Source of the DNA: Promicromonospora iranensis
GTDB taxonomy: Bacteria > Actinomycetota > Actinomycetes > Actinomycetales > Cellulomonadaceae
Direction of reading: 5' to 3'
Length of the DNA: 64,000 nt
Assembly (NCBI RefSeq): GCF_028994805.1
Contig: NZ_JAJQQP010000017.1
Coordinates: 959-64,958, forward strand
How positions within the stretch are numbered: the first letter of the stretch is position 1; each line of letters opens with the position of its first letter. Shown piece after piece: positions 9,103 to 46,884 of the stretch. The notes under the pieces are model-generated. The model saw only the letters and a program-made list of their open reading frames with translations. It was not told the DNA's origin and searched no databases. Made by a program: the position numbers and the translations under genes.

Positions 9103-9300
9103 TGGGCGCGGTCCGGTCCAGCCGCATCCCCGAGAGCGGTCGCCGACCGCACGGGGCCGGACGGCGCTCGACGTCTGCCCTGGTGGTGTATCACCGTCGG
9201 GTCGCGCGACTCCCGACTCGTGTGGAAATGTTGCCCAGCGAGCCGGGACTCCGTGTTTGACACCGTCTGTGACACCGTCTGGAGAGAGGGACAGGTTGGC

Positions 9301-9744: not shown

Positions 9745-9758
9745 CCCGCGTCCGGCGC

Positions 9759-11273: not shown

Positions 11274-11278
11274 CTGAC

Positions 11279-11304
11279 AACTGTACCGTCCAGCCGGTAC
11301 AGTT
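11279..11304. promoter_or_regulatory. TetR operator between efflux pump and regulator
   Basis: AACTGTACCG (11279-11288), spacer TCCAGC, CGGTACAGTT (11295-11304): a perfect 10-bp inverted repeat with a 6-bp spacer. It sits in the 94-base divergent gap, abutting the pump start codon and 63 bases from the regulator start. This is the expected position of a TetR dimer site shutting off both genes. Confidence 0.8.
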
Positions 11305-11367
11305 TCATCGAAGTGGTCCTTGAACTGGCCCTATAGTGCATGCCGAGGGTGAGTGAGGTGTTGGTCA

Positions 11368-11928: not shown

Positions 11929-11960
11929 CAGCGCAGGACCTCGGGCTCGCCTCGGCCTGG

Positions 11961-27284: not shown

Positions 27285-27379
27285 CACGGGCCTGCTGGGC
27301 CACTTGCGAGTGGCAGGAGCGTTGTTAACGTCGAACGGCCGACCCAACGCCGCACCGCGATCCTCCGTGAGGTGATCCC

Positions 27380-28450
27380 GTGACCGCCGACGAGAGCACG
27401 ACCGACCGACCTGGGCGCGATGCCAGCAGGGATCCTGGGCCGGTGGTGACCCGGCGGTCGGTGCTCAAGTCCCTGTCGATGATCGGTGGGGCCGGGCTCG
27501 TCGGCGGGGCGACCCTGGCCGGCTGCACCCCGGACGCCACTGGTCCGGCCGGAGCAGCCGGGACGGCGACCACCGACGAGCGCGTCCATCAGCCCGAGCG
27601 GTCCCCGCTGCCACCCGACGAGGCACCGGACAGCCTGCGCTTCTTCACCGAGCAGGAGGCGCGCCTGCTCGAGGCGATGCTCGCGCGCCTGGTGCCCGGC
27701 GACGACCGGGACCCGGGCGCCGTCCAGATGGGAGTGGCGACGTACATCGACGGCAAGCTCGCCGACCACGACCCGTATGCCGAGCCCACGTACACGCACG
27801 GTCCCTTCGCGAGCACCTACGAGGAGGCGCCGAGCGAGGTGGAGGAGGGTGCCGTGCCGATCGCCGAGAGACAGCTCTACCGGTACGGGCACCAGGGCCG
27901 CCGGCCTCCACAGGAGACCTACCGGCTCGGTCTGGGTGCCCTCGACCGGTACGCGCAGACCCGGTACGGTCGCTTCTTCGCCGATCTCGGTCCGGAACGC
28001 CAGGACGAGATCCTCGTGGTGCTCGACGACCACGGGCAGCGCAGCGAGGCCGCCGACCAGGTCACCGGCAGCGCCGCGGAGGGCAGCGACGACGGGGCCG
28101 AGACCTCGACCAGCGACGACGGGGCCGAGACCTCGACCAGCGACGACGTGCTGGACCAGGCCGAAGAGGTGTTCGGCGAGGTGGACCCCGGCGGCTTCTT
28201 CTCGATGGTGCGCACGGACACGATCGAGGGCATGTTCGCCGACCCCGCGTACGGCGGCAACAAGGACCTGGCGGGCTGGCGCCTGGTCGGATGGCCGGCG
28301 GCACAGCGCTCCTACTCACCGGAGGAGATGCTCCGGGGCACGGACAAGCAGCCGCGGTCGATGCACGGGCTGCCCGTCATGAACCCAGACCGCCCGGGCG
28401 GCGGCAGAGGTGCGCTCGAGCGGCCCCACGACCACGTCGGGAAGGGCTGA
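27380..28450 (+). CDS. Tat-exported lipoprotein, gluconate 2-dehydrogenase subunit 3 family
   Basis: A 356-residue protein. It has a textbook Tat signal 'TRRSVLKSLSMIGGAGL' (Arg25-Arg26) ending in the lipobox LAGC (Cys49), so it should be a Tat-exported lipoprotein. Residues ~85-220 match the small subunit of three-subunit FAD dehydrogenases ('LRFFTEQEARLLEAMLARLV', 'PPQETYRLGLGALDRY', 'DTIEGMFADPAYGGN'). In Burkholderia glucose dehydrogenase this subunit carries the signal that exports the flavoprotein as a hitchhiker. A duplicated Ser/Asp/Glu insert lies at ~236-256. GTG 27380 follows GAGGTGA. First gene of the operon running to 41521. Confidence 0.88.
   Translation: MTADESTTDRPGRDASRDPGPVVTRRSVLKSLSMIGGAGLVGGATLAGCTPDATGPAGAAGTATTDERVHQPERSPLPPDEAPDSLRFFTEQEARLLEAMLARLVPGDDRDPGAVQMGVATYIDGKLADHDPYAEPTYTHGPFASTYEEAPSEVEEGAVPIAERQLYRYGHQGRRPPQETYRLGLGALDRYAQTRYGRFFADLGPERQDEILVVLDDHGQRSEAADQVTGSAAEGSDDGAETSTSDDGAETSTSDDVLDQAEEVFGEVDPGGFFSMVRTDTIEGMFADPAYGGNKDLAGWRLVGWPAAQRSYSPEEMLRGTDKQPRSMHGLPVMNPDRPGGGRGALERPHDHVGKG
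28085..28147. repeat. 27-bp tandem duplication inside the subunit 3 gene
   Basis: A 27-bp unit beginning AGCGACGACGGGG is repeated perfectly (28085-28111, 28112-28138) and followed by its first 9 bases (28139-28147). It encodes the acidic stretch SDDGAETST twice plus SDD. The repeats are in frame and lie in a probable surface loop, so the duplication lengthens a linker without breaking the gene. Confidence 0.85.
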
Positions 28451-28451
28451 G

Positions 28452-30218
28452 ATGCGGCGACACGATCCGGTGGACATCGTCACGATCGGCGGCGGCATGT
28501 CCGCCTCGATCCTCGCCTCCCAGATCCTGCCACCGACGTCGCTGCAGATGGTCTCGCTGGAGCAGGGGCCGGCCCAGTGGACCTACCCCGACTTCGCCCA
28601 CAACCACGACTCCCTGCGCTTCCAGAATCGCTTCGCCATGATGCAGGACATCTCGCGGACCACCTGGACCTGGCGGCCCGACGAACGCTCGCCGTCGCTC
28701 CCCTACCGCCAGTTCGGCAGCTTTCACCCCGGCCAGGGGCTCGGCGGCTCCATGGTGCACTGGACGGCACTGACCTGGCGGTTCCTGCCGGACGACTTCC
28801 GCTACCGCAGCCTCAACGAGGAGAAGTACGGCCGCGACCGCATCCCCGCGGAGATGACCACGCAGGACTGGCCGATCGGCTACGACGACCTCGAGCCGTA
28901 CTACGACCAGCTCGAGTACGACATGGGTGTCTCGGGCCGGGCCGGGAACCTCGGCGGGCAGATCCTGCCGGGCGGAAACCCGTTCGAGGGTGAGCGGCAG
29001 CGCCCGTACCCGAACCCGCCGCTCGCCCGGAGCAAGTTCGGCCAGCTGTTCGAGGATGCCTCCGCGGGCCTGGACCTGCACCCCTTCCCCACACCGGCGG
29101 GCATCCTGTCGCAGGGCTACACCGACCCGTACGGCAACACCCGCGCCGGCTGCCTGTACTGCGGGTTCTGCACGCGCTACGGCTGCGAGGTCGGCGCCAA
29201 GACGAGCCCGCTGACCACCTGGCTTCCACCGGCCCTGGACACGGGCCGCTACGAGGTGCGTACCGGCTGCCGGGTGCTGCGGATCGAGACCGCCGACGAC
29301 GGCCGGGCCACGGGCGTGCGGTACGTCGACTCGCGGGGCGAGGAGCACGTGCAGCCGGCCGAGGTGGTGGTCTGCTCGGCGTTCACGCTGGAGAACGTCC
29401 GGATGCTGCTCCTGTCCCGAGGCGGCGCGCACCCGGACGGGATCGGCAACGACCGTGGACAGGTGGGGCGCAACTACACCTACCAGCTCGAGCAGTCCCC
29501 CGCGAAGGGTCTGTGGGAGGACGAGTCGTTCAACTTCTTCATGGGCAACGGCTGCACCAACTCGCAGATCTACGACTACAACGGCGACAACTTCGACCAC
29601 TCCGACCTCGATTTCCTGGGCGGCGCGGCCATCGCGGCCGCGGCCGGCCAGCGCGAGCCGATCAGCTCGTCGAACACGCTCCTCGACGGCTTCGCGGACC
29701 GGCAGTGGGGCGCGGAGTGGAAGTCGATGCTGGGCCGCTACTGGGACCAGGTCGGCACGGTGAACGTCCAGGGGGACAGTCCGGCCTATGCCGGCAACTT
29801 CCTGGACCTCGATCCCACCTACCGGGACGAGTGGGGCCTGCCGATGCTGCGCATCACCTTCGACTGGCGCGAGAACGAGCGGAACATGCATCGCTTCCTC
29901 GCCGCCCGCTGCGAGGAGATCCTCCGGGCGATGAACCCCGACCGGGTCACCGTGGAGGCCGAGCTGGGTCCCTACCGGATCGACCAGTACCAGAGCACGC
30001 ACCCGACGGGAGGGGCGATCATGGGCCGGGACCCGGGCGACAGCGTGACCAACAGCTACGGGCAGGTGTGGGACACGCCCAACGTGTTCGTCACCGGGGC
30101 CGCCCTGTACCCGCAGAATCCCGGGGCGAACCCGACCGGCACGGTGGGCGCGCTGGCTCTGCGCACGGCCGAGGCCATCCGGGACCGCTACTTCGCCCGG
30201 CCCGGAGAGCTGCTGTGA
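28452..30218 (+). CDS. GMC-family FAD dehydrogenase (gluconate/sugar 2-dehydrogenase-type large subunit)
   Basis: A 588-residue GMC flavoprotein. 'VDIVTIGGGMSASILASQIL' is the FAD Rossmann motif, 'PGQGLGGSMVHWTAL' the GMC signature, and 'STHPTGGAIMG' with 'PQNPGANPTGTVGALAL' the catalytic His and Asn segments. A cysteine cluster C234-x2-C237-x2-C240-x4-C245 (GCLYCGFCTRYGCEVGAKTS) resembles the Fe-S site of FAD glucose dehydrogenase. It has no signal peptide and is probably exported with the Tat-tagged subunit 3, whose stop is one base upstream. Likely a periplasmic sugar or alcohol dehydrogenase; the substrate is unknown. Confidence 0.88.
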   Translation: MRRHDPVDIVTIGGGMSASILASQILPPTSLQMVSLEQGPAQWTYPDFAHNHDSLRFQNRFAMMQDISRTTWTWRPDERSPSLPYRQFGSFHPGQGLGGSMVHWTALTWRFLPDDFRYRSLNEEKYGRDRIPAEMTTQDWPIGYDDLEPYYDQLEYDMGVSGRAGNLGGQILPGGNPFEGERQRPYPNPPLARSKFGQLFEDASAGLDLHPFPTPAGILSQGYTDPYGNTRAGCLYCGFCTRYGCEVGAKTSPLTTWLPPALDTGRYEVRTGCRVLRIETADDGRATGVRYVDSRGEEHVQPAEVVVCSAFTLENVRMLLLSRGGAHPDGIGNDRGQVGRNYTYQLEQSPAKGLWEDESFNFFMGNGCTNSQIYDYNGDNFDHSDLDFLGGAAIAAAAGQREPISSSNTLLDGFADRQWGAEWKSMLGRYWDQVGTVNVQGDSPAYAGNFLDLDPTYRDEWGLPMLRITFDWRENERNMHRFLAARCEEILRAMNPDRVTVEAELGPYRIDQYQSTHPTGGAIMGRDPGDSVTNSYGQVWDTPNVFVTGAALYPQNPGANPTGTVGALALRTAEAIRDRYFARPGELL

Positions 30219-30652
30219 CCCGCGCCGGGGCGCCGACCCGGACGACGGCACGCGCGACGACCCGCCCGACCGCCAGGATCGCGGCGGGAGCGGCGTCAGT
30301 TCTGGTCGCCGTCGCCGTCATGTCCGGGTGCGCGGGGAACAACGTGCCGCCGCCCACGGAGGTACGCCTGACCGCCGAGGGATTCGAACCGGTGACCGTG
30401 GAGACGTCCGCCGGCAGCGAGGTGCGGTTCGTCAACCGCTCGGAACGGCCACAGCACCTGGCATCCATCGCGCTCGACGACGGCGCGGCGGCCGTTCCGC
30501 CAGGAGCCGCTCCGATCGACTCGGGCCGGCTGGTGGCGGGCGCCACCTATGCGGCGCGGCTGGACGTACCGGGTGAGTACGTCGTCGAGGCCCGGCTGGC
30601 CGGGACCGGCACGCCGGCGCTCGTCACGATCCAGGTGAAGGAGCTGCCATGA
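30215..30652 (+). CDS. Cupredoxin-like lipoprotein without evident copper ligands
   Basis: A 145-residue lipoprotein (lipobox VMSGC, Cys39). The mature part reads like a plastocyanin-fold beta-sandwich ('RLTAEGFEPVTVETSAGSEV', 'VRFVNRSERPQHLASIALDD'), but the Cys...His...Met copper loop is missing; the only histidine in the loop is in 'RPQHLAS'. It may be a structural or degenerate cupredoxin between the dehydrogenase and the oxidase. GTG 30215 overlaps the GMC stop (GTGA) and its stop overlaps ctaC (ATGA), so it is tightly coupled to both. Confidence 0.72.
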   Translation: MTRAGAPTRTTARATTRPTARIAAGAASVLVAVAVMSGCAGNNVPPPTEVRLTAEGFEPVTVETSAGSEVRFVNRSERPQHLASIALDDGAAAVPPGAAPIDSGRLVAGATYAARLDVPGEYVVEARLAGTGTPALVTIQVKELP

Positions 30653-31677
30653 TCGATCTCCGTGTCCCTGTGATGTTCCCGCCCGCCAGCGAGGACGCCA
30701 GCCGGGTCGACAGCCACTGGCAGCTGATGCTGATAGTGGGATCGGTGGTCTGGGTCGTCGTCGTGACCGTCGCGCTCGTCGCGGTGCTGCGCCGGCGGCG
30801 CGGCGGCGGGCAGGAGGGCACCGAGCAGACCGACGACGCGCCCCGGCCGACGACCGGCAACGGGCACCTCGTCGTGGGGTTCCTGGGGGCGGTGGTACCC
30901 GCACTGATCATCATCGGGGTGATGGCCGACTCGGTGCTGGTCCTCCGCGACACCGGCAGTGCCAGCAGCGCCGCCGACGCGACGGTCGTCGAGGTCGACG
31001 GCAAGCAGTACTGGTGGGAGGTGCGGTACCCGGAGCAGGGCGTGGAGACGGCCAACGAGATCCACATCCCCACGGGTCAGGACGTTCGCGTCGAGCTGAC
31101 CAGCACGGACGTCATCCACAGCTTCTGGGTGCCTCAGCTCAGCGGCAAGGTGGACCTCGTCCCGGGCGAGACCAACGTGCTGACGCTCAGCGCCGACGAG
31201 CCCGGCACCTACTGGGGCCAGTGCGCGGAGTACTGCGGTCTCCAGCACGCGTGGATGCGGTTCGTGGTGGTCGCGCACGACGAACCGGAGTACGCCGGCT
31301 GGCTCGAGGCGCAGGCCCGGCCCGCTGAGCCCGCCGACCCCGCAGAGGGCGACGGGGACGACGTCGAGAGCGGCCCCGGGCCCGCCTCCGGACCGGTCTC
31401 GGACGTCGCCGCCGGCCGGGAGATCTTCATGTCCTCGTCCTGCGTCTACTGCCACACCGTCGCCGGCACGGAGGCACAGGGCACGCTCGGGCCGGACCTG
31501 ACGCACCTGGCGAGCCGGCAGATGATCGGGGCCGGCGTGCTGCCCAACGACCGCGAGAGCCTTGCCCGCTGGATCGAGCACCCGCAGGACGTCAAGCCGG
31601 GCAACGCCATGCCCGGCACCGAGCTGGAGGACGACGAGCTCGACGACCTCATCACCTATCTGGAGAGCCTGGAGTAG
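30649..31677 (+). CDS. ctaC: Cytochrome c oxidase subunit II with fused cytochrome c (caa3-type)
   Basis: A 342-residue subunit IIc. Two membrane helices (~27-47, ~73-98) are followed by the CuA cupredoxin domain with His157, Cys192, Glu194, Cys196, His200 and Met203 (GQCAEYCGLQHAWM). After an acidic linker (~222-252) comes a monoheme cytochrome c domain: Cys265-x2-Cys268-His269 (CVYCH), with Met321 (NAMPG) as probable sixth ligand. It receives electrons and passes them to heme a. ATG 30649 overlaps the previous stop (ATGA). The c-type heme requires the maturation genes downstream. Confidence 0.93.
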   Translation: MIDLRVPVMFPPASEDASRVDSHWQLMLIVGSVVWVVVVTVALVAVLRRRRGGGQEGTEQTDDAPRPTTGNGHLVVGFLGAVVPALIIIGVMADSVLVLRDTGSASSAADATVVEVDGKQYWWEVRYPEQGVETANEIHIPTGQDVRVELTSTDVIHSFWVPQLSGKVDLVPGETNVLTLSADEPGTYWGQCAEYCGLQHAWMRFVVVAHDEPEYAGWLEAQARPAEPADPAEGDGDDVESGPGPASGPVSDVAAGREIFMSSSCVYCHTVAGTEAQGTLGPDLTHLASRQMIGAGVLPNDRESLARWIEHPQDVKPGNAMPGTELEDDELDDLITYLESLE

Positions 31678-31680
31678 CGC

Positions 31681-34212
31681 GTGACGACGACGGACCAGCA
31701 GCCAGCGCCGACTGCCGAGGAGCGGGCACGCTTCGAGGAGGTCTGGGCCCGGCCGCGCGGCTGGCGCCGGGCCCTCACGTCCGTGCAGCACAAGTCCGTC
31801 GGTACGCGCTACATGGTCACCGCGTTCGTGTTCTTCTTCGTGGGCGGCCTGCAGGCGCTGCTCATGCGCGTGCAGCTCGCGCAGCCCGAGCAGCAGGTGC
31901 TCTCGGCCCAGACGTACAACGAGCTGTTCACCATGCACGGCACGACCATGATGTTCCTCTTCGCCGTGCCGTTCCTCGAAGGGCTGGCGGCGTACCTGCT
32001 GCCGCTGATGCTCGGCGCACGCGACATGCCGTTCGCCCGCTACAACACGTTCAACTACTGGTGCTACCTGCTGGCCGGGATCATCCTGTACAGCAGCTTC
32101 CTGGTCGGCATGGTGCCCGATGCCGGCTGGTTCGCCTACGTCCCGCTGTCCGGGCCGGAGTTCGCCGACAAGGCCATGGACATCTGGCTGTTCGGGCTGG
32201 CGCTGGCCGAGCTGGCGGCGATCGGGGCGGCGATCGAGATGATCGTGGTGGTGCTCGGCATGCGTGCGCCCGGCATGTCGCTGGACCGCATGCCGATCTT
32301 CGCGTGGACCATGCTGTGCGTCGCGGGCATGATCATCCTGGCCTTCGTGCCCCTGCTGGTGGGCTCGCTGCTGCTCGAGCTCGACCGCAACGTCGGTACC
32401 TCCTTCTTCGAGACGGACCGGGGCGGCGACCCGCTGCTGTGGCAGCACCTGTTCTGGATCTTCGGGCACCCCGAGGTCTACGTCATGTTCCTGCCGGGCG
32501 CCGCCATCATCAGCCACGTGATCCCGGTGCACTCCCGCCACCGGCTCGTGGGCTATCCCTTCGTCGTCGCCGCGGTGGTCGTGACGGCGATCATGAGCCT
32601 GGGCCTGTGGGTGCACCACATGTACACGACCGGGCTGCCACCGGTGACCCTGTCGTTCTTCACCGCGGCGAGCATGTCGATCAGCGTGGCGTCCGGTGTG
32701 CAGGTGGTCGCCTGGCTGGCGACCCTCTGGTCCGGCCGGCCGCGGCTGACCGTGCCGATGCTCTTCTCGCTCGGCTTCCTGTTCACGTTCGTCGCGGGTG
32801 GCATCACGGGCGTCATGGTCGCCTCCGCGCCGTTCGACGCCCAGGTGCACGACACCTACTTCGTCGTCGCGCACTTCCACTACGTGCTGATCGGCGGCAT
32901 GCTGTTCCCCGTCCTCGCGGGCCTGTTCCACTGGTGGCCCAAGTTCACGGGCCGGATGCCGTCGCCCCGGCTCGGCAAGGTGAGCTTCTGGCTGGCGTTC
33001 GTCGGCTTCCACCTCACGTTCTTCCCCATGCACCTGACCGGGATGTGGGGCATGCCGCGGCGGGTGTTCACGTACGACGCCGGGCTCGGCGTCGGCCTGC
33101 TGAACCTGCTGTCCACCATCGGCGCGTTCGTCTTCGCCACCGGGCTCGTGCTCGCGGCGATCACCCTGGTCGGCGCGCTGCGCCGCGGGGAGCGGTCGGG
33201 ACCGAACCCCTGGGGTGCCGACACGCTCGAGTGGGCGGCCGACTCACCGCCCTCGGCGCCCAACTTCGCCCGGATCCCGGTCGTGGGCAGCCGGGCCCCG
33301 CTGTGGGACCCGCCGCCGGACGATCCCGAGCTCGACCGGATGGCCGCCGCGTTCGACCATGCCCCGCAGAACGTCCGTGCCACACCGTTCACGACCGTGC
33401 TGAGCGCGCGGCCGGGCACGGCGGCGGTACAGGCGAGCCCCAGCATCTGGCCGCTGCTGGCCGCCGGCGGGCTCGCCCTGGCGGCGGTCGGCCTGCTCGT
33501 GGAGAGCGGCTGGGTCGTGGGCCTGAGCGTGCTCCTGATCGTCGCCGGCCTCGTGGTGTGGGAGCTTCAGAACGAGCGCGAGCTCGGCGCCGGTGAGGCC
33601 AAGGAGCCGGTGGGGGGCGAGTACCTGGTCGAGGCCCCCGGCCCGCGGTCGCCCGGCTGGTGGGGAGCGACGATGGCGGCGGTGGTGCTTGTGGTCGCCG
33701 TGTCGACCGTCGCGTTCAGCATGCTCTTCCTCCAGGTCAACGCACCGGTGTGGCCCGACGGCGCGACGCTCGGCACGCCGTGGCTGTCGGCGGGGACCGG
33801 GCTCGCCCTGCTGGTGGCGATCGCGGCGTCCTGGTGGGGGTCACGCCAGGGCCCGCTCGAGCACGACGCCACGCCGGTGGCTCGCACGGCCCACCTCGCG
33901 GCCGGCGCGACGACGGCGACCGCCGGCACGGTGGCGCTGGCCCTGGCCGTCGCCCAGTGGCCGGCCGGGGGCCTGGACCACACGGCCCACGCCTACGACT
34001 CCGGGGTCCTCATGCTGGTCGGCACGCTGGCGCTGGCGACGGTGCTCGGCCTGGGGATCACCGTGTCCGCCCTCGTCGCCCGCCTGACGCACACGCGCGA
34101 CGTCCGCCCTCGCATCATGCTGCAGAACGCCGCGGTCCTGTGGACCGGAGTGCTCGTCGTCTGGGCGGTGGCCTGGGTGGCCACGGACCTGCTGCCCACG
34201 GTGGTGGTCTGA
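31681..34212 (+). CDS. ctaD: Fused cytochrome c oxidase subunits I and III
   Basis: An 843-residue membrane protein. Residues 1-~500 are subunit I: His86 and His400 (heme a), His263 with Tyr267 (GHPEVY, CuB and His-Tyr cross-link), His312-His313 (WVHHMY, CuB) and His398 (heme a3; VVAHFHYV). Residues ~590-843 add about seven helices in the position of subunit III, which is fused to subunit I in Thermus-type caa3 oxidases. It reduces O2 to water and pumps protons. GTG 31681 follows the ctaC stop by three bases. The subunit III part is weakly conserved. Confidence 0.93.
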   Translation: MTTTDQQPAPTAEERARFEEVWARPRGWRRALTSVQHKSVGTRYMVTAFVFFFVGGLQALLMRVQLAQPEQQVLSAQTYNELFTMHGTTMMFLFAVPFLEGLAAYLLPLMLGARDMPFARYNTFNYWCYLLAGIILYSSFLVGMVPDAGWFAYVPLSGPEFADKAMDIWLFGLALAELAAIGAAIEMIVVVLGMRAPGMSLDRMPIFAWTMLCVAGMIILAFVPLLVGSLLLELDRNVGTSFFETDRGGDPLLWQHLFWIFGHPEVYVMFLPGAAIISHVIPVHSRHRLVGYPFVVAAVVVTAIMSLGLWVHHMYTTGLPPVTLSFFTAASMSISVASGVQVVAWLATLWSGRPRLTVPMLFSLGFLFTFVAGGITGVMVASAPFDAQVHDTYFVVAHFHYVLIGGMLFPVLAGLFHWWPKFTGRMPSPRLGKVSFWLAFVGFHLTFFPMHLTGMWGMPRRVFTYDAGLGVGLLNLLSTIGAFVFATGLVLAAITLVGALRRGERSGPNPWGADTLEWAADSPPSAPNFARIPVVGSRAPLWDPPPDDPELDRMAAAFDHAPQNVRATPFTTVLSARPGTAAVQASPSIWPLLAAGGLALAAVGLLVESGWVVGLSVLLIVAGLVVWELQNERELGAGEAKEPVGGEYLVEAPGPRSPGWWGATMAAVVLVVAVSTVAFSMLFLQVNAPVWPDGATLGTPWLSAGTGLALLVAIAASWWGSRQGPLEHDATPVARTAHLAAGATTATAGTVALALAVAQWPAGGLDHTAHAYDSGVLMLVGTLALATVLGLGITVSALVARLTHTRDVRPRIMLQNAAVLWTGVLVVWAVAWVATDLLPTVVV

Positions 34213-34213
34213 C

Positions 34214-34594
34214 ATGGCCGCACCTGGACCTGCCCGGCGGCGCTCCCCCGCCCTCGCCCTCGTCGGTGTGCTCCTCCCGCCCGTCGCCTGGCTCTGCGCC
34301 CTCGGGCTGTCCTACCTGGTGCAGGACTTCGCCTGCACGGCGTACGCCAGCGCCGGCCACAGCCCGCCCGCCACGGTGATCGGCGCGGTCGTCGTGGGGC
34401 TCGACGTGGTGCTGCTGGCGCTGGCCGTCTCCGCCGGGATCATGGCCTGGCGCGTGCACCGGCAGGCCCGGGACACCGAACCCTCCTCGCCGCTGGGCTT
34501 CCTCGGTCTGCTGGGGCTGCTCCTGTCCGTCGGCTTCGGGGCGGGGATCGTCCTGGTGGCCGTCAACCCACTCGTCCTGGAGGTCTGCGCATGA
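34214..34594 (+). CDS. Small membrane protein of the oxidase operon (unknown function)
   Basis: A 126-residue protein with three hydrophobic segments (~13-35, ~54-78, ~94-117) and three cysteines. The first segment 'LVGVLLPPVAWLCALGLSYL' has the 'LLPPxAW' pattern I associate with small proteins next to caa3 oxidase genes in proteobacteria, but no function is known to me. ATG 34214 follows the oxidase stop by one base, and its stop overlaps ccmC (ATGA). Position suggests an accessory subunit or assembly factor; it is too short and unlike CcmB to replace that protein. Confidence 0.75.
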   Translation: MAAPGPARRRSPALALVGVLLPPVAWLCALGLSYLVQDFACTAYASAGHSPPATVIGAVVVGLDVVLLALAVSAGIMAWRVHRQARDTEPSSPLGFLGLLGLLLSVGFGAGIVLVAVNPLVLEVCA

Positions 34595-35352
34595 GGCAGA
34601 ACCACGACTCTTCCGGCACTTCCGGTGCGCCGCGGGGCGGCCGGGTGCTGACGCTCGCCGCGGTCACGAGCACGGCGCTCGCGCTCGTGCTGGCCCTGCT
34701 CGTCGCACCGCCCGACGCCGTGCAGGGCCAGGCACAGCGCTGGATGTACCTGCACGTCCCGGCGGCGTGGTCGGCGTACGTGTGCTTCGCCGTCGTGCTC
34801 GTCGCGAGCCTTCCCATGGCGCTGCGCGGTGCGGTCCGGCCGCTGGCCGTGGCCCGGGCCGCGGCCGAGGCCGGGGTGGTGCTCACGACGCTGACCCTGG
34901 CCACCGGCAGCGTCTGGGGCGCCCAGACCTGGGGCACCTGGTGGGTGTGGGACGCCCGGGTGACGACGACGGTGGCCATGGGTCTGGTCTACGTCGCCCT
35001 CCTCGCGGCCCTGGCGCTCGCCACCGGGCCGGGCGGACGACGCGCCGCGGGACTCGTGGGCGTGCTCGGCTTCGCCCTGGTCCCGGTGGTGCACCTGTCA
35101 GTGGTGTGGTGGCGCACGCTCCACCAGCCGCCGACGTTGCTGGCGCCTGGTGCCGGGGCGCCGATCGCGCCCGCCATGGCGTGGGCGCTCGGGGCATCGG
35201 TCGTGGCGTGCATGCTGCTGACGGCGGTCGTGGTGCTGGCTCGCACGCGGCGGTACGCCCTGCTCACTTCCGCGGACCCCACCAAGGACGCCACACCGGA
35301 CGCCACCACCGACGCCGACAAGGCCGCCGACCGGCTCCGGGTGGCGCCATGA
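34591..35352 (+). CDS. ccmC: Heme-handling protein CcmC (System I cytochrome c maturation)
   Basis: A 253-residue heme-handling protein with six hydrophobic segments. The WWD motif 'GSVWGAQTWGTWWVWDARVT' lies at ~107-124, flanked by the two external histidines His55 (YLHVP) and His168 (VVHLSV), as in proteobacterial CcmC. CcmC loads heme onto the chaperone CcmE, encoded immediately downstream. ATG 34591 overlaps the upstream stop and its own stop overlaps ccmE (ATGA). The last ~30 residues are a Thr/Asp/Ala-rich cytoplasmic tail. System I genes are not the usual maturation route in actinobacteria. Confidence 0.92.
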   Translation: MRQNHDSSGTSGAPRGGRVLTLAAVTSTALALVLALLVAPPDAVQGQAQRWMYLHVPAAWSAYVCFAVVLVASLPMALRGAVRPLAVARAAAEAGVVLTTLTLATGSVWGAQTWGTWWVWDARVTTTVAMGLVYVALLAALALATGPGGRRAAGLVGVLGFALVPVVHLSVVWWRTLHQPPTLLAPGAGAPIAPAMAWALGASVVACMLLTAVVVLARTRRYALLTSADPTKDATPDATTDADKAADRLRVAP

Positions 35353-35747
35353 GGCCGGCGGTCCCCCGTGGCCGAGCGCGCGCCTGGCTCGTGCTGGCCA
35401 TCGCCGGCCTCGGCCTCGCCGGTCTGCTGGCCTCCGCAGCCCAGGACGGGCTCACCTACTGGGGTACGCCCAGCGAGCTGACGGCGCAGGGGCCGCCCGA
35501 ACGCGATGTGCGCCTCGGCGGCCTGGTGGTGACGGGCAGCGTGGTGGAAGAAGCAGCGGGCACCTCGTTCGTGCTGACCGACGGCGCCACCGACGTGACC
35601 GTGCGCTACGCGGGCGTGCTGCCCGCGACGGTCCGCGAGGGCGAGGGCGCGGTCGTCGAGGGTGTGCTCGACGGGCAGGTGCTCCACGCCCGGTCCGTGC
35701 TGCTGCGGCACTCGAACGAGTACCGGCCGCCCGAGGGCGCGTCATGA
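35349..35747 (+). CDS. ccmE: Heme chaperone CcmE
   Basis: A 132-residue protein with one N-terminal membrane anchor (~13-31) and a beta-barrel domain. The heme-binding motif HxxxY is present as His121-Ser-Asn-Glu-Tyr125 (LLRHSNEYRPPEG), matching the HDENY motif of E. coli CcmE; it is the histidine, not the cysteine, variant. CcmE carries heme covalently from CcmC to the CcmF/H ligation complex. It overlaps both neighbours by 4 bases. It is short, with little beyond the barrel. Confidence 0.93.
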   Translation: MRPAVPRGRARAWLVLAIAGLGLAGLLASAAQDGLTYWGTPSELTAQGPPERDVRLGGLVVTGSVVEEAAGTSFVLTDGATDVTVRYAGVLPATVREGEGAVVEGVLDGQVLHARSVLLRHSNEYRPPEGAS

Positions 35748-38233
35748 CGGCGGGGCTCATGGCGGGCGGCACCGTCCTGCTGGTCCTGGCGCTGACGGCG
35801 TCGGTGACCGCCGCGGTCGCGTGCGGCGCTGCTGCACGCACGCCGACCGCACGCACGCCCGGTCGGGAGCGGTTCGGCACGTGGGCGCTGGTCGGGAGCG
35901 CCGCGGCGATCGTCGCCGCCGTCGTGCTCCTGGAGGCCGCCCTGCTGCGCCAGGACACCACGTGGTCCTACGTGCAGCGCGTGACGGACACCGGCATGTC
36001 GGCGTACTACCGCGTCTCGGCGATGTGGTCCGCGCTGGAGGGATCGCTGCTGCTGTGGCTGGCCGCGCTCGCGACCGTCGCCGTGGTCGCCCTCTTCACG
36101 ACGCGTCGGCTGGCGCCGCCGGACCGGGCAACGGTCCTGAGCGTGCTCGCCGCGACGATCGCGCTGTTCTGCGTGGTGTCCCTGGTCGCGTCGCCGTTCA
36201 CGGCGTCGTCCGGGTCGGGCGGGTCGCCGAGCCCGTTGCTGCGCGACCACGTGGCCATGGGGATGCATCCCCCTCTGCTCTACGGCGGCTTCGCGGCCCT
36301 GGCCGTGCCCTACGCGCTGTCCGTGGCGGCGCTGGTGCGACGACGGCTGCCGCGGGGCTGGGCAGCGACCACCCGGGCCTGGAACGTCGGGGCGTGGACG
36401 CTGCTGACCGCCGGCGTCGGGCTCGGCGCGTGGTGGTCCTATGCCGTCCTCGGCTGGGGCGGGTACTGGGCCTGGGACCCGGTCGAGAACGCCTCGCTGC
36501 TGCCGTGGCTCGCGTCGACCGCGCTGCTGCACGCGGTGGGCCCGCGCACGCGGAGCGGACGGTGGCGCACCTGGGCGGTCGTCCTGTCCGGCCTCGGGTT
36601 CGTGCTCGTGGTCCTGGCGCAGCTCGTCACGCGGTCCGGGATCGTGGAGTCCGTCCACGCGTTCACGACGTCGGCGCTGGGCCCCGTCCTGGTGGCCGTG
36701 CTCGGTGTGGTGGCGGTGCCGTGGGTGATCCTGCTCGGGCGTGCCCGCTCCCCCGCAGCGCCCACGCCCCTGGGCGACGCCCAGGGCGGGAGCGGTGTAC
36801 GGAGCGGTGTACGAAACTCTGTCCGGGCGACCGCACTGGACGGCCAGCGCGCGCTGCTGATCGTCGTCCTCGTGGTGGTGGCCGTCGGCACGCTGCTGCC
36901 CACGGCGCTCCTGCTGCTCACCGGGGAGCGGGTCTCCGTGGGCCCGCCCTGGTATCAGCGCACGCTGGCACCGTTCGCGCTGCTGCTCCTGGTGCTGCTC
37001 GCCACGGCGCCCTGGCTCGCCCGGTCCCGCAGGCCGCCGCACCCACTCGTCCCGGGGGCTGTCGGCGCGGTGGTGTGCTGCGTCGTCGGCCTCACGGTCC
37101 GCGACCCCGTGCTGGCCGTCGTGGCCGGGCTGGCCGCGTTCACCGTCACCGCTGGGGTTCCCGTGCGCCGCGGACGGGCCGGCCCGGGACCCGACCGGCA
37201 CGCGACCGGCTCCTGGCTCGCGCACACCGGCGTCGCGCTGGGTGCGGTCGCCGTCATCGCCGGGAGCCACGGGACGGTGCGGGAGGCGGTGCTGCCCGTC
37301 GGTGAGACGTTGAGCGCAGGGGACACCACGGCGACGCTCGTCCGCCTCGACCGGCTCGACGAGGCAGGCCGACAGGTGGCCGAGGCCGAGCTCCTCGTCG
37401 GCCGGGACGGAGAGCTCGTCGGCACCGCCCGACCGCAGCTGCGCTGGTATGCCGACGACGCGGCGATGCTCGCCGGGCCGGACATCCGCAGCAGCTTCCT
37501 CGAGGACGTGTACGTCACCCTCCTGGACGCCGACCCCGCCGCGGGCACCGCGACCGTACGGCTCGCGGTGACACCGCTGGTCGGGTGGATCTGGGCCGGC
37601 GTCGCGCTCGCCGTCGCCGGCGGCACGCTGGCGGCCGTGCCCGGCCGGCGGTCCGGCGGCCGAGGCCGGCTCGGCGCCGGTCCCCGGCCGGCCTCCGGCT
37701 CGACGGCCCCCGCCCACCATCCCCTGTCCCCGCGGACGACGGCCCGGGTACTGACGGTCGTGGTGCTACCGATGCTCGTGCTCGGCCTGGCGGGTTGCGC
37801 CTCGACCGAGGAGGACGAGCCGAGCCCGGCCCCGCCGCTGGCCGGCGAGGGTCTCGACGGGCGCGAGTACGACGTCGCCGAGCTGCGCGGCTCGGTGGTG
37901 CTCGTCACGGCCTGGGCATCGTGGTGCGCCCCGTGCCGGGACGAGATGCCCGTGCTCGCCGACGCCCAGGAGGAGCTCGGGGACGCCGGGCTGGAAGTGC
38001 TCGGCATCAACGTCCGCGACCTGCCCGAGCCCGCACGGCAGTTCGCCGCCGAGCACGAGGTGTCGTTCCCGAGCATCGTGGACCAGCAGGGCACCATGTC
38101 GGTCGCCTGGGGTCTGCGCGGTGTCCCGGTCACCTATCTCGTGGACCGCGAGGGCCACCTCGTCGAACGGCATCCCGGGCCGGTCACGGCGACCTGGATC
38201 GACACCGTCGTGGAACCGGAGGTGCGCGGATGA
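35744..38233 (+). CDS. ccmF: CcmF heme ligase fused to CcmG thioredoxin
   Basis: An 829-residue fusion. Residues 1-~645 are CcmF with many membrane helices, 'AMGMHPPLLYGGF' (His175) and the WWD motif 'GWGGYWAWDPVENASLLPWL' (~237-256). After a cytoplasmic-type linker, a helix ending in a lipobox-like LAGC (Cys685) leads to a TlpA/CcmG thioredoxin domain with the active site WCAPC (Cys728, Cys731) and 'GVPVTYLVD'. The topology is consistent, placing both active sites outside. CcmF ligates heme to apocytochrome; CcmG keeps its CxxCH reduced. No stop or clear internal start separates them. ATG 35744 overlaps ccmE. Confidence 0.92.
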   Translation: MTAGLMAGGTVLLVLALTASVTAAVACGAAARTPTARTPGRERFGTWALVGSAAAIVAAVVLLEAALLRQDTTWSYVQRVTDTGMSAYYRVSAMWSALEGSLLLWLAALATVAVVALFTTRRLAPPDRATVLSVLAATIALFCVVSLVASPFTASSGSGGSPSPLLRDHVAMGMHPPLLYGGFAALAVPYALSVAALVRRRLPRGWAATTRAWNVGAWTLLTAGVGLGAWWSYAVLGWGGYWAWDPVENASLLPWLASTALLHAVGPRTRSGRWRTWAVVLSGLGFVLVVLAQLVTRSGIVESVHAFTTSALGPVLVAVLGVVAVPWVILLGRARSPAAPTPLGDAQGGSGVRSGVRNSVRATALDGQRALLIVVLVVVAVGTLLPTALLLLTGERVSVGPPWYQRTLAPFALLLLVLLATAPWLARSRRPPHPLVPGAVGAVVCCVVGLTVRDPVLAVVAGLAAFTVTAGVPVRRGRAGPGPDRHATGSWLAHTGVALGAVAVIAGSHGTVREAVLPVGETLSAGDTTATLVRLDRLDEAGRQVAEAELLVGRDGELVGTARPQLRWYADDAAMLAGPDIRSSFLEDVYVTLLDADPAAGTATVRLAVTPLVGWIWAGVALAVAGGTLAAVPGRRSGGRGRLGAGPRPASGSTAPAHHPLSPRTTARVLTVVVLPMLVLGLAGCASTEEDEPSPAPPLAGEGLDGREYDVAELRGSVVLVTAWASWCAPCRDEMPVLADAQEELGDAGLEVLGINVRDLPEPARQFAAEHEVSFPSIVDQQGTMSVAWGLRGVPVTYLVDREGHLVERHPGPVTATWIDTVVEPEVRG

Positions 38234-39159
38234 CCCGGCGTCGTCCCGGGGCCGTGGCCGTGCTGGCGGCCGTCGTGGCCCTCGTCGCGGTGGCCGGGGC
38301 GGTGTTCGCCGTCGCGGGCCAGGAGCCGCCGACGCCGCGCGAGCAGACCCGCGCGGTCGCGAGCACGCTGCGCTGCCCGTCCTGCGTCGGGGAGCACGTC
38401 GCCGACTCGACGTCGCCCGTCGCCGAGTCGATGCGCCTGGTGGTGGCTGAGCAGCTCGACGCCGGCCGCTCCCCGGACCAGGTGCGGGCCTGGTTCGCCG
38501 ACGCCTACGGCGACGACGTGCTGCTCGAGCCGCCACGACGCGGCCCGGGCTGGGCGCTCTGGGTGGTGCCCCTGGTCGTGGTCGGCGCGGCGTCGCTGTG
38601 GTTCGCCCGACGGCGAGGACGGCCCGCCCTCGGCACCACGGCGGTCGTCGTCGGTGTGACGCTGCTCGGCGTCTGGTGGCTGGCGCCGGGTGCGCTGACC
38701 GGCCCGGACGACGCCGCCCGGGCCGGGACGGACGACACGACGAACAGCACGGCAGACGGCACAGCCAGCCCTCCACGCGTCGCCGTGACCGTGCTCGAGG
38801 ACGCAGCGGCCGACCAGCCCGGCCGCGTCGAGCTGCGGGCGGCACTCGCCCGCCAGCTCGAGAAGGCGGGGCGCACGGACGACTCGGTCGCCCAGTGGGC
38901 CGCCGCGGTACGGCTCCGGCCGATGGACCCGGACCTGCGCTACCGCCATGCGTTCGCGCTGGTGCGCACGGGCGCGTCCGGCGAGGCGGTCTCGGTGCTG
39001 GACGGCACGCTGACGGTCGACCCCGACCATGCGCCGACCCTCCTGCTGCTCGGCTCCGTGCTCGAGGAGTCCGACCCCGAGCGCTCGGCAGAGCTCCGGG
39101 AGCGGTACCGGGCGGCGCGCGACGGCGCCGAGGAACAGTCGGCCGAGGTGCCGCCATGA
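38230..39159 (+). CDS. ccmH: CcmH with C-terminal TPR (CcmH/CcmI-like)
   Basis: A 309-residue protein. After an N-terminal membrane segment it carries the CcmH redox motif LRCPSC (Cys49, Cys52) and 'SPDQVRAWFADAYGDDVLLE', typical of CcmH. Two further helices (~100-150) precede a TPR-like region ('RVELRAALARQLEKAGRTDD', 'HAPTLLLLGSVLEESD') resembling the CcmI part that binds apocytochrome C-termini. It works with CcmG in thiol reduction and with CcmF in ligation. ATG 38230 overlaps the ccmFG stop and its own stop overlaps the cupredoxin gene. Confidence 0.92.
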   Translation: MTRRRPGAVAVLAAVVALVAVAGAVFAVAGQEPPTPREQTRAVASTLRCPSCVGEHVADSTSPVAESMRLVVAEQLDAGRSPDQVRAWFADAYGDDVLLEPPRRGPGWALWVVPLVVVGAASLWFARRRGRPALGTTAVVVGVTLLGVWWLAPGALTGPDDAARAGTDDTTNSTADGTASPPRVAVTVLEDAAADQPGRVELRAALARQLEKAGRTDDSVAQWAAAVRLRPMDPDLRYRHAFALVRTGASGEAVSVLDGTLTVDPDHAPTLLLLGSVLEESDPERSAELRERYRAARDGAEEQSAEVPP

Positions 39160-39557
39160 GGCGGCGGGCCGCCCGAGCCGTACCGGCGGTGCTCCTGGCC
39201 GCCGTCCTGGCCGCGGGCTGCTCGGCGTCGGACGACGGCGCGCCGGGACCCGACATGTCCGGGGTCGTGACTTCGACGCTGCGGGTCGGCCTGACCGAGT
39301 GGAGCATCGAGACCGGCGGCGCCGTACCCGCGGCGGGTGAGCTCACCGTGCTGGTGACCAACACGGGCGCCACGGGCCACGACCTCGTCGTGCACGGCGA
39401 GCACGGCACCTGGCAGACGCCGGTCCTCGCCGCGGGCGAGCGGCACGAGCTGACCGTCACCGCGGTGCCGGGCGAGACGCTCGAGCTGGTCTGCAGCGTC
39501 TCCGGGCACCATGCCGCCGGCATGAGCGCGGAGCTCGACGTCGCGGAGGACCGGTGA
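39156..39557 (+). CDS. Type-1 copper (cupredoxin) lipoprotein
   Basis: A 133-residue lipoprotein (lipobox AAGC, Cys22) with a complete blue-copper ligand set: His75 (ATGHDLVVH), Cys113, His118 and Met123 in 'CSVSGHHAAGM' (C-x4-H-x4-M). It could shuttle electrons to the cytochrome domain of subunit II or deliver copper to CuA/CuB. Both ends overlap neighbours by 4 bases (ATGA, GTGA). Unlike the lipoprotein at 30215 it retains all copper ligands, which argues for a redox or copper-delivery role. Confidence 0.85.
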   Translation: MRRRAARAVPAVLLAAVLAAGCSASDDGAPGPDMSGVVTSTLRVGLTEWSIETGGAVPAAGELTVLVTNTGATGHDLVVHGEHGTWQTPVLAAGERHELTVTAVPGETLELVCSVSGHHAAGMSAELDVAEDR

Positions 39558-41521
39558 ACCGCCAGTCGTCCGCAGCCGCCCTGGCGACCGTGTCCGGCGT
39601 CGCGCTCGCGGCCGCGGTGGTCGCTGCCGTCTGGGGGCTGGTGGCCGGCGGGATGACCGACCCCGTGCTGCGCGACCCGGGCGCCCTCGTCCGGTGGGGG
39701 CTGCCGCTCACCGAGGTGGTCGCCCGGCTGTCGGCAACGGTGACGATCGGCGGGCTGGCGCTGGCGACAGCGGTCCTGGCACCCGCCGCGGCCGCCCCGG
39801 CCGTTCGAGCGGCCACGGTCTCCGCCGTGGTCTGGGCAGCGGCCCAGGCGGTCTGTCTGCCCCTCACGGCCCTCACCGTCGTCGGCTCCCCGACCGCCGA
39901 CGACGGCACCCCCGCCCTCGGCGTGCTGCTCGGCACGCCTCTGGGACCATCCCTCCTCTGGGCCGCGGCGCTGGCCCTGGTGGTGGCGGTCGTGCTGCTG
40001 GTGGTGTCTCGCCCCGGCCGCGTACCCGCCGCCCTCATGGTCGCGCTCCTCGCGCTGGTCCCGGTCGCCGCCGCCGGGCACGCCGGGCACGGACCGGGCC
40101 ACGGCGCGGCCTCCGCGCTGTGGCTCCACCTCGGCGCGGCCACGATCTGGGCGGGCGGGCTGCTGGTGCTGGTGGCGCTCACGTACGCGCCGGGGGCCGG
40201 TCCGGCCCGTGGTGCCGCCTCCCTCACCACGGTCCGGCGGTTCTCGCGGGTGGCGGGCTGGTGCTACGTCGTCGTCGCCGCGTCGGGCCTGTTCGCCGTG
40301 CTCGAGCTGTCCGTCTCGCCCAGCGCGCTCCTGACCACCGGGTGGGGCGCCCTGCTCCTGGCCAAGGCGGCCCTGTTCGCCGGCCTCGGCGTCGCCGGGT
40401 GGGCCCATCGCCGGCGGGTGCTCGCGCGCGCCGCGCTGACCGGTGGGCAGCCCCTCGCCCGGCTCGCCCTCGGTGAGGTGGTGGTGCTGGCAGCGGCCGT
40501 CGGGCTCGGCGTCGCCCTCGGGGCCTCCGCGCCACCGTCCGCCCCCGCCGACGCCGGAGCGCTGCCACCGCTCTCGGTGTCGACCGCCCTGAGCCGATGG
40601 AGCCCGGAGCCGGTGCTGGCGCTGGCGGCGCTCGCCGGGCTGGTGACCTACGTGCGGTGGGTCGTCCGGCTGGCCCGGCGCGGGGACCGCTGGCCCGCGG
40701 GCCGGGTGGTCGCCTGGGTCGCCGCCATGGTCCTGCTGCTCTGGGTCACCAGCGGTGGTCCGGCAGCGTACGGCCATGTGCTGATCAGTGCCCACATGGT
40801 GCAGCACATGGTGCTGGTCACCGCGCTCCCGGTGCTCGCGGCCCTGGCGTCGCCGGTGACCCTCGCGCTGCGCGCTCTGCCGGCCACGACGGACGGCCCG
40901 CCCGGGCCGCGGGACCGCCTGCTCGCCGTGCTCGGCAGCAGAGCCGCGCGGGTGCTCCTGCACCCGGTGGTGGCGACCGCCAACGTCGTGGTCAGCATGG
41001 CCGTCTTCTACGCGACGCCGCTGTTCGATCGGAGCCTGACCAACGGCGTCGTGCACCTGCTGGCGGTGCTGCACTTCAGCCTGGCGGGGTACGCGTTCAT
41101 GACGATCCTCATCGGCACGGACCCCGTGCCGCACCGGCCGCCGTACCCGCTGCGGCTGCTCATGCTGGCGCCCGCCATGGTGCTGCACACCGGGCTGGGG
41201 CTCGTGCTGGTCACCAGCTCGCAGGTGGTGCTCGCCGCCACGGTGCTGGCCGAGTCGCGGCCGGCCTGGCTCACCGACCCGGTGACCGACCAGCAGGCCG
41301 CCGGGGCGCTCGTCTGGGCGCTCGGCGAGGTGCCCGCGCTGGGCATCGCACTGCTGATCGCCGCCCGCTGGGCGGCGGCGGACGAACGGGACCAGCGCAG
41401 GGCGGCCCGCCGGGCCGTGGCCGAGCCCCGCGCCGTCAGCCCTTCGAGCCCGTCGTCGCGATCCCCTGCACGAAGTACCGCTGGCCCGCGAAGAACAGGA
41501 GGATCATCGGCACGGTCGTGA
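39554..41521 (+). CDS. ctaG: CopD-CtaG fusion membrane protein (copper delivery/oxidase assembly)
   Basis: A 655-residue polytopic protein. Residues ~1-330 are CopD-like (nine or so helices with 'AAAGHAGHGPGHGAASALWL' His-rich loop), and ~345-615 are the caa3-type CtaG domain ('HVLISAHMVQHMVLVTALPV', 'FYATPLFDRSLTNG'). This fusion is common in actinobacteria and serves copper uptake/oxidase assembly. The C-terminal ~40 residues are Ser/Pro/Arg-rich and are encoded antisense to the end of the ABC permease gene, an 86-base convergent overlap. GTG 39554 overlaps the cupredoxin stop. Last gene of the operon. Confidence 0.9.
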   Translation: MNRQSSAAALATVSGVALAAAVVAAVWGLVAGGMTDPVLRDPGALVRWGLPLTEVVARLSATVTIGGLALATAVLAPAAAAPAVRAATVSAVVWAAAQAVCLPLTALTVVGSPTADDGTPALGVLLGTPLGPSLLWAAALALVVAVVLLVVSRPGRVPAALMVALLALVPVAAAGHAGHGPGHGAASALWLHLGAATIWAGGLLVLVALTYAPGAGPARGAASLTTVRRFSRVAGWCYVVVAASGLFAVLELSVSPSALLTTGWGALLLAKAALFAGLGVAGWAHRRRVLARAALTGGQPLARLALGEVVVLAAAVGLGVALGASAPPSAPADAGALPPLSVSTALSRWSPEPVLALAALAGLVTYVRWVVRLARRGDRWPAGRVVAWVAAMVLLLWVTSGGPAAYGHVLISAHMVQHMVLVTALPVLAALASPVTLALRALPATTDGPPGPRDRLLAVLGSRAARVLLHPVVATANVVVSMAVFYATPLFDRSLTNGVVHLLAVLHFSLAGYAFMTILIGTDPVPHRPPYPLRLLMLAPAMVLHTGLGLVLVTSSQVVLAATVLAESRPAWLTDPVTDQQAAGALVWALGEVPALGIALLIAARWAAADERDQRRAARRAVAEPRAVSPSSPSSRSPARSTAGPRRTGGSSARS

Positions 41522-44646: not shown

Positions 44647-44836
44647 GGTGATCCTCCTCCGTGCGGGCTGCCGGCATCGCTCGACGGCCGGCTCGGGATC
44701 ATCGTGTGCCCGGGCCGATGCACTCGCACGAGAAGCGGTTCTCGCCCCGGGGGCCGCGGGCGCCTCACCCCCGGGGGGGACGGCCTCGCACCGGGCGCGG
44801 AGCGCCGCGACAGCCCGGTCCTGCCATGATGTTGGT

Positions 44837-46789: not shown

Positions 46790-46884
46790 GCGCTCGCTCC
46801 TCCTGGGAACCAGGTCCCGCACGGGACCGGTGCAGGAGAGACCGCTGGACGCCGCCGGACTCATCGGGATCCGGGCGGCACGGC

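Follow-up and report, generated by a model that had tools for sequence, protein, structure and literature searches.

A block of 12 tightly packed genes in the soil actinobacterium Promicromonospora iranensis probably constitutes a horizontally moving respiratory cassette, in which a GMC flavoenzyme would deliver electrons through a private chain to a caa3-type oxidase of its own, matured by genes of the same operon. The operon occupies positions 27380–41521 on the plus strand of a stretch of 64,000 nucleotides from contig NZ_JAJQQP010000017.1 (the window). A dedicated dehydrogenase-to-oxidase chain is well supported by our results; its carrier and its substrate we infer. The host genome (5.84 Mb in 31 contigs, 100% complete) also encodes ResB of cytochrome c maturation System II and an ordinary, housekeeping aa3 oxidase, near whose locus lies the gene for a diheme QcrC-like protein. 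That the operon's oxidase stands beside all of these speaks for the self-contained unit with a dedicated oxidase proposed in an initial annotation of this DNA. The protein families themselves are known. It is their combination that we have not found described, and its gene content, gene order, distribution and residue changes are direct observations. In open-licence PubMed Central papers we found nothing on this operon, on a natural System I without CcmAB, or on the glutamine variant of the oxidase described below.

Layout of the operon

The initial annotation placed the operon correctly in position and strand but counted 11 genes and ten junctions, where there are 12 and 11. Judged from candidate starts, neighboring genes overlap by four bases at eight junctions; genes 2 and 6 are each preceded by a 1-nucleotide gap and gene 5 by one of 3 nucleotides. 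Pfam and NCBIfam scans of the window proteins, by which we assigned gene families, confirmed the GMC enzyme, the caa3 subunits COX2 and COX1, the Ccm proteins and CopD-CtaG. GC content is 0.75–0.765 over 34001–42000 and about 0.695–0.75 in the other 2-kb steps of the window. The features are as follows.

27303–27379, plus strand: leader, probable promoter/operator region, with the blocks CTTGCGAGTG and GTTGTTA.CGTCGA (alignment of four upstream regions)
27380–28450, plus strand: gluconate 2-dehydrogenase subunit 3 family (hitchhiker subunit), twin-arginine translocation (Tat) signal with lipobox (PF13618, E 7.8e-28; signal by eye)
28452–30218, plus strand: GMC flavoenzyme, catalytic subunit, with Cys234/237/240/245, His103 and His517/Asn560 (PF05199, PF00732; phmmer to 6a2u; invariant columns)
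30215–30652, plus strand: cup1, cupredoxin-like lipoprotein without the copper-loop Cys (PF13473 below cut-off; ligand alignment)
30649–31677, plus strand: CtaC, oxidase subunit II, CuA site and C-terminal heme-c domain with CVYCH and Met321 (PF00116, PF00034, TIGR02866)
31681–34212, plus strand: CtaD, oxidase subunit I with C-terminal extension, Gln341 at the K-channel Lys position (PF00115, E 6.7e-147; TIGR02891; alignments)
34214–34594, plus strand: small membrane protein, three transmembrane helices by eye (aligned in 10 of 10 operons)
34591–35352, plus strand: CcmC, heme handling, with His55, WWD motif and His178 (PF01578; TIGR01191 below its cut-off; alignment)
35349–35747, plus strand: CcmE heme chaperone, HSNEY with His121 and Tyr125 (PF03100, E 2.8e-23; alignment)
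35744–38233, plus strand: CcmF fused to a CcmG/ResA-like thioredoxin, WASWCAPC (PF16327, PF01578, PF00578)
38230–39159, plus strand: CcmH (LRCPSC) with a CcmI-like TPR part (PF03918, E 3.3e-26; TPR_19)
39156–39557, plus strand: cup2, lipoprotein with the type-1 copper ligand pattern His75, Cys113, His118, Met123 (weak CopI/sulfocyanin matches below cut-off; ligand alignment)
39554–41521, plus strand: CopD-CtaG fusion, copper handling and oxidase assembly (PF09678, E 1.8e-66; PF05425, E 5.6e-13)

Three details of the initial annotation had to be revised. The Tat signal that it assigned to the GMC dehydrogenase is present, but on the small subunit encoded by gene 1 (RRSVLKS...LAGC, with a lipobox, by eye). 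Of its two cupredoxin-like lipoproteins only cup2 has an intact ligand pattern; cup1 falls below the Pfam cut-off and lacks the copper-loop Cys. Its System I heme-c maturation comes down to CcmC, CcmE, the CcmF-G fusion and CcmH-I. The small membrane protein matches no Pfam family at E 0.01 and keeps two Cys across ten aligned operons. A hypothetical gene of similar size follows ctaD in Dinoroseobacter.

Conservation and mobility

A search of actinobacterial genomes for the same gene order, suggested in the initial annotation, found it kept in nine others as far as the available contigs reach, which excludes chance. All 12 genes are found in this order in Promicromonospora umidemergens; in Myceligenerans salitolerans and M. 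pegani the order holds up to the contig ends. In the available DNA it also holds in Xylanimonas oleitrophica, Citricoccus zhacaiensis, Microbacterium album, Labedella populi, Aeromicrobium phragmitis and Salinibacterium sedimenticola. There is no cup2 match in the available DNA of the Labedella locus, CcmG is a separate gene in Aeromicrobium, and the Microbacterium, Labedella, Aeromicrobium and Salinibacterium loci have a CtaG homolog upstream on the opposite strand.

The operon is patchily distributed. The closest GMC relative, with 92% identity, is that of P. umidemergens. At E 1e-100 or better the GMC protein occurs in one of 394 genomes of the class, the host itself, and an alignment search at 1e-120 found it in 13 of 356 genomes of the phylum, the host and 12 from other classes. 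Within the genus, two of 13 Promicromonospora genomes, the host included, carry CcmF. Scanning genome contigs with the GMC protein gave 13 loci, of which L011 is the same DNA as L007.

DNA similarity to P. umidemergens forms a single piece, from 27303 to 41418, and then ends. There is no other match of more than 80 bases to the 20-kb stretch compared, which extends past the operon by 3.6 kb on its upstream and 2.4 kb on its downstream side. Both Myceligenerans loci likewise start matching at 27303, and the 77 bases upstream of gene 1 contain blocks conserved in four operons. Because homology to the congener stops at the operon ends, the operon seems to be transferred whole, together with a short leader of its own. 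If this is true, a single transfer of about 14 kb would equip a bacterium with an entire fuel-to-oxygen chain.

Linked dehydrogenase and oxidase genes are also found further afield. Plasmid pDSHI02 of Dinoroseobacter shibae carries, in this order, genes for subunit 3, GMC, two cytochromes c, coxB, ctaD, a small open reading frame and an oxidase assembly protein. Hence, the dehydrogenase–oxidase core is wider than its actinobacterial form. Dehydrogenase and oxidase genes are neighbors in one Thermomicrobiales and one Thermoleophilia contig as well.

Some clusters combine similar parts differently. On a Rhizobium acidisoli plasmid (L088, 2015–9809) a gene for an FdhF/YdeP-type oxidoreductase is followed by genes for cytochrome c, coxB, ctaD, subunit 3, an assembly protein and a second cytochrome c. 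This could be another dehydrogenase-dedicated oxidase, and the same type of oxidase behind an FdhF/YdeP gene suggests use with different dehydrogenases. In genome G236 (L074, 41–14445) a divergent caa3 and Ccm cluster lies beside antiporter-like genes (Mrp-type, by eye). In genome G357 (L071, about 2000–12400) a formate-dehydrogenase-like gene set (by eye) and a CcmC-E-F-G-HI-cup2 cluster lie back to back, with a cytochrome c and a CtaG-like gene close by; this genome is without CcmB.

The dehydrogenase

The solved structures nearest to the GMC protein by sequence are the flavin adenine dinucleotide (FAD) glucose dehydrogenase 6a2u (phmmer E 1e-33) and fructose dehydrogenase. In the Burkholderia cepacia glucose dehydrogenase, as described in passages of PMC6719666, a 3Fe-4S cluster is held by Cys212, Cys218 and Cys222, and "hitchhiker" is the term used for the small subunit. 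In the phmmer alignment, these three residues coincide with Cys234, Cys240 and Cys245 of the GMC protein of the window. Together with an extra Cys237, His103, His517 and Asn560, they are invariant in all 13 aligned GMC homologs. We therefore expect that Cys234, Cys240 and Cys245 may hold an iron–sulfur (Fe-S) cluster at the surface of the enzyme. As in complexes of the FAD glucose/fructose dehydrogenase type, the GMC gene adjoins one for a Gluconate_2-dh3-family subunit with a Tat signal (by eye). No multiheme cytochrome c subunit was found in the operon by Pfam, a scan that included no search with multiheme profiles.

On plasmids of Deinococcus, Azospirillum and Pseudoroseomonas a cytochrome c gene comes after the subunit-3/GMC pair. 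We dropped the idea of deducing the substrate from neighboring genes. The gene upstream (25620–27284), for a thiamine pyrophosphate (TPP)-dependent enzyme with three TPP_enzyme domains, ends 95 bases before the operon; it lies outside the block common to the relatives and is therefore probably unrelated to the operon. In the relatives, flanks were viewed through reading frames alone, without family scans (L014, L017, L018, L022 and shorter contigs). On the other side of the operon, frames at 42278–44844 (minus strand) resemble ABC transporter permeases and a binding protein by eye, although the one that was scanned, at 43192–44844 (minus strand), matches no Pfam family at E 0.01. Further on, 45437–46993 (minus strand) encodes a berberine-bridge-type FAD enzyme (FAD_binding_4 and BBE).

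The oxidase and its K-channel

Most of what is expected of a caa3 oxidase is in place. CtaC has the full CuA site CAEYCGLQHAWM, the CVYCH heme-c motif and Met321. In CtaD the D-channel residues D132, N139 and E286 are present as Asp115, Asn122 and Glu265, and the active-site Tyr is kept too. Residues 31–604 match the Thermus subunit I+III chain 2yev_A, and the C-terminal extension looks like subunit IV/III, by inspection only.

The exception is the K-channel. At the position of Lys362, CtaD has Gln341, and Gln is found there in all 15 oxidases of this type that were examined (the window, the nine actinobacterial operons, one Thermoleophilia and one Thermomicrobiales metagenome-assembled genome, Dinoroseobacter, R. 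acidisoli and G236). The host's own housekeeping aa3 oxidase and a Deinococcus plasmid oxidase keep Lys. The Paraburkholderia plasmid oxidase L089, outside the 15, has Ala at this position and Trp for E286. The Glu at the K-channel entrance in subunit II (E101) may have been lost too. In the column of the housekeeping Glu, all 15 have Gly, Ala, Leu or another non-acid, in an alignment that is loose here: a Glu stands four columns further on in L017, and that of Deinococcus (in the motif ELIWT) is misplaced by two columns. Four of the 902 plasmid records with a COX1 match were viewed for the K-channel residue or its surroundings. Two D-channel positions vary as well: that of E286 is Asp in L074 (G236) and L019, and that of Asp132 is Asn in the R. 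acidisoli oxidase.

At first glance loss of the Lys might be taken for a trait of GMC-linked oxidases only. We rejected this, since the G236 oxidase and the Rhizobium oxidase beside the FdhF/YdeP gene also have Gln. Nor is K-channel loss in family A new as such, since under one rooting of the tree, according to a passage of PMC8239418, the channel would have been lost seven times. According to the consensus as worded in a section of PMC10341450, K-channel proton delivery needs K362. CtaD thus departs from canonical caa3 oxidases at one tested defining feature, the K-channel Lys. The other cofactor ligands that we checked are kept, and therefore the oxidase need not be dead. The operon is a natural test of whether turnover and proton pumping are possible in an A-type oxidase that has lost this Lys.

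The route of the electrons

In several related operons the next carrier is encoded on the spot. In L014, L016, L017 and L018 the small membrane protein gene and ccmC are separated by a gene for a lipoprotein mono-heme cytochrome c, and in L019, L022 and L023 a free cytochrome c gene immediately precedes the subunit-3/GMC pair. The window has no such gene; there, the small membrane protein gene and ccmC overlap. Nor is there a match for a free cytochrome c at this position in L007, L012, L013, L015 and L020. When a profile of six free cytochromes was run against the host genome, CtaC was the sole significant match (E 1e-18), and the next one (E 0.135) fell inside the diheme QcrC-like gene. With the free cytochrome c gene missing, it seems most likely that the Fe-S cluster would hand its electrons straight to the CtaC heme-c domain.

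The initial annotation had electrons bypass quinone and bc1 and reach the oxidase directly. The bypass is favored by the absence of a multiheme quinone-reducing subunit from the operon and by D. shibae, where cytochrome c genes stand between the dehydrogenase and caa3 genes, as would be expected if electrons passed from dehydrogenase to cytochrome c to caa3. The possible carriers fare less well: cup1 has no intact type-1 site, cup2-like genes also close Ccm clusters with no GMC gene in the 18–19 kb fetched, and the free cytochrome c of several related operons is missing.

The main rival to direct transfer is that cup2, and originally also cup1, shuttles electrons from GMC to CtaC in place of the missing cytochrome c. 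Cupredoxins are known electron donors to oxidases, and the cup2 ligands are well kept (Cys113 and both His75 and His118 in nine of nine aligned rows, Met123 in eight). One could take both cupredoxins for sure carriers. For cup1 this does not hold, as the Cys is kept in only three of 11 aligned rows and the window is not among these. As for cup2, similar genes end the Ccm clusters of G236, G357 and, weakly, G421, with no GMC match in the 18–19 kb fetched; cup2 therefore follows the Ccm and oxidase genes and not the dehydrogenase. Neither protein is thus a safe electron carrier, and we regard a cupredoxin shuttle as unlikely.

Alternatively, the oxidase could be a second general terminal oxidase fed by a bc complex, with the dehydrogenase merely on the same transcript. 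The diheme QcrC-like gene near the housekeeping aa3 locus could provide electrons that the CtaC heme-c domain would accept, and on a Deinococcus plasmid a K-type oxidase with a CtaC-like subunit II lies beside Rieske and cytochrome b genes. This explanation leaves the linkage of dehydrogenase and oxidase genes unaccounted for, which is found in Actinobacteria and an alphaproteobacterium and extends to neighboring genes in the Thermomicrobiales and Thermoleophilia contigs. The operon also contains no bc subunit, and the marker CcmF is absent from 11 of the 13 genomes of the genus. We consider a bc-fed oxidase quite unlikely.

Cytochrome c maturation without a recognizable CcmB

Whether System I is unusual in actinobacteria, as the initial annotation held, depends on the level. 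Within the class it is (CcmF in nine of 394 genomes); within the phylum it is not (175 of 396). What sets the operon's set apart is CcmB. The host genome has no CcmB over the cut-off; its best match reaches 23.3 bits against a cut-off of 24.9, and we rejected it as CcmB because the frame reads as a drug-type ABC-2 permease beside an ABC ATPase (by eye, without hidden Markov models). Among 14 named control genomes six gave a match. CcmB over the cut-off is absent from all nine operon relatives tested (G002, G029–G035 and G037). Eight give no match at E 0.001; the ninth, G030, has one of 22.6 bits that again reads as an ABC-2 permease (by eye). G236 and G357 have no CcmB match either.

Overall, none of the 12 genomes with this CcmC-E-F-G-HI set has CcmB over the cut-off, and ten of them have cup2 (the L013 contig ends before it; L016 gives no match). 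The host, G002, G236 and G357 are 99–100% complete. In comparison, CcmB is present in all seven other tested genomes of the order or class with CcmF (G017, G019, G105, G184, G298, G354, G421). In the phylum sample, a CcmB match, if only a weak one, is present at E 0.001 in 172 of 175 genomes with CcmF, and the host is among these only by its match below the cut-off. In a tree of 47 CcmF proteins the 12 CcmB-less ones fall together, with support of only 90/63, and G421 is their sister (98/97 for the 13); L062 (G439) and L046 (G492) bear the label "CcmB" in this tree by default. There is no CcmA-like gene among the 12 operon genes, and ccmC and ccmE overlap, which leaves no space for ccmD between them.

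It is very improbable that the Ccm genes are decayed leftovers and that CtaC is matured by System II, for although ResB is present and CcmB was not found, the reading frames in the window are open and overlapping and ten operons keep the checked heme and thiol motifs, which indicates selection. These motifs are the CcmC His and WWD, the CcmE HSNEY (10 of 10), the CcmF WWD and the CcmH CxxC, with one CcmC WWD Trp changed to Ala in L018; the comparison covered CcmC, CcmE, CcmF and CcmH. CcmC His55 and His178 are the P-His positions, matched by motif.

In E. coli, according to sections of PMC12077264 and PMC9616876, CcmCD form holoCcmE without CcmAB, and the ATPase activity of CcmAB releases it. 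Judged by its genes, the operon's Ccm set appears to depart from canonical System I at one tested defining feature, CcmB. A System I naturally without CcmB would imply another way of releasing CcmE or an unrecognized partner. The operon thus offers a second natural test, of which factor other than the CcmAB ATPase might set heme-loaded CcmE free.

How the cassette might work

The electron route, the substrate, the proton path and the release of holoCcmE are predictions from sequence. By analogy with the FAD glucose dehydrogenase family, the Tat signal of the small subunit would export the folded flavoenzyme and the lipobox would anchor it outside the membrane. FAD would take electrons from a reduced small molecule, presumably from an alcohol or sugar OH group, and hand them to the surface Fe-S cluster, whose ligand positions are present. 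In several related operons a lipoprotein cytochrome c would be the next step; its gene is missing in the window lineage. Here, electrons would most likely go to the CtaC heme-c domain and on to CuA, then to heme a and finally, at heme a3-CuB, to oxygen; neither quinone nor bc1 would take part. Judging by their families, CcmC-E-F-G-H-I would load the heme c of CtaC and CopD-CtaG would handle copper. With the K-channel Lys replaced, the chemical protons for oxygen reduction would be taken up without it, and holoCcmE would be released without a recognizable CcmB.

One could go further and regard both losses as simplifications of a mobile module with a private, low-flux, quinone-bypassing chain. 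Release of holoCcmE without CcmAB might be helped by cup2 or by its being taken up constantly on CcmF, while in a low-flux chain dedicated to one dehydrogenase an A-type oxidase would work without a K-channel. We put this forward tentatively, as an idea that has slightly less than an even chance of being right.

Several points weigh against our interpretation. The proposed direct step between the Fe-S cluster and the CtaC heme c is deduced from what is missing, cup2 could be a carrier given its intact copper-ligand pattern, and CtaC could also accept electrons from the host's QcrC. An AlphaFold model of the GMC protein (mean predicted local distance difference test score 64.9, below 50 for residues 216–252) was too poor to use and was set aside, so that it lends no structural support. 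Around the GMC relatives of Thermus and Halorussus, an incomplete gene table lists neither an oxidase nor a cytochrome gene within about 6 kb; the dehydrogenase–oxidase pairing is therefore not universal. Other points concern CcmB. Eight of the nine operon relatives tested come without a completeness figure. Three of the 175 phylum genomes with CcmF lack a CcmB match at E 0.001 (G439, G492 and G545, in about 300–430 contigs). In G421, CcmF-G-H and a weak cup2-like gene (36%) occur together with CcmB. Both G036, the Thermoleophilia metagenome-assembled genome, and G039, one from Chloroflexi (27.9 bits), have CcmB over the cut-off. Finally, CcmA could lie elsewhere in the genome, as ABC ATPases are ubiquitous, and CcmD is too short for a search.

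Comparison with known systems

The dehydrogenase is closest to the FAD glucose dehydrogenase of B. cepacia and to fructose dehydrogenase (6a2u, 8grj, 7w2j). Like them it pairs a GMC protein with an exported hitchhiker subunit, and the Fe-S ligand cysteines and the His/Asn pair stand at matching aligned places. Overall similarity is low (phmmer E about 1e-33). In contrast to these enzymes, it has no multiheme c subunit, its cysteines form a four-Cys motif (CxxCxxCx4C), and caa3 genes share its operon.

With System I (CcmABCDEFGHI) the operon shares CcmC, CcmE with HxxxY, CcmF, a CcmG-like domain, CcmH and a CcmI-like part. It differs in that no CcmB reaches the cut-off, CcmF and CcmG are fused, and a type-1 copper lipoprotein gene follows the Ccm genes. 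Archaea offer another reduced System I, the streamlined CcmABCEF, which in the account given in part of PMC9084895 keeps CcmAB and does without CcmD, CcmH and CcmI. The window set differs by keeping CcmH-CcmI and having no recognizable CcmB.

The D. shibae cluster is annotated, and we found no paper on it as a unit in open-licence PubMed Central literature. Unlike the window it shows no annotated Ccm or cupredoxin genes in 13.6 kb, its GMC protein is about 40% identical, and it has extra genes: two c cytochromes and, further on, an amine-oxidase-like gene and a third cytochrome c. The dehydrogenase–oxidase core, the K-channel Gln and the length of COX1 (853 vs. 843 aa) are alike.

A subunit II with both CuA and heme c is a feature of the caa3 oxidases of Thermus (2yev) and Bacillus, and the window shares it, as it shares the subunit I+III chain with Thermus. 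The Bacillus caa3 system also includes CtaG, as mentioned in part of PMC9145763, and the window has it within CopD-CtaG. Compared with both, the window oxidase has Gln in place of the K-channel Lys and is tied to dehydrogenase and System I genes.

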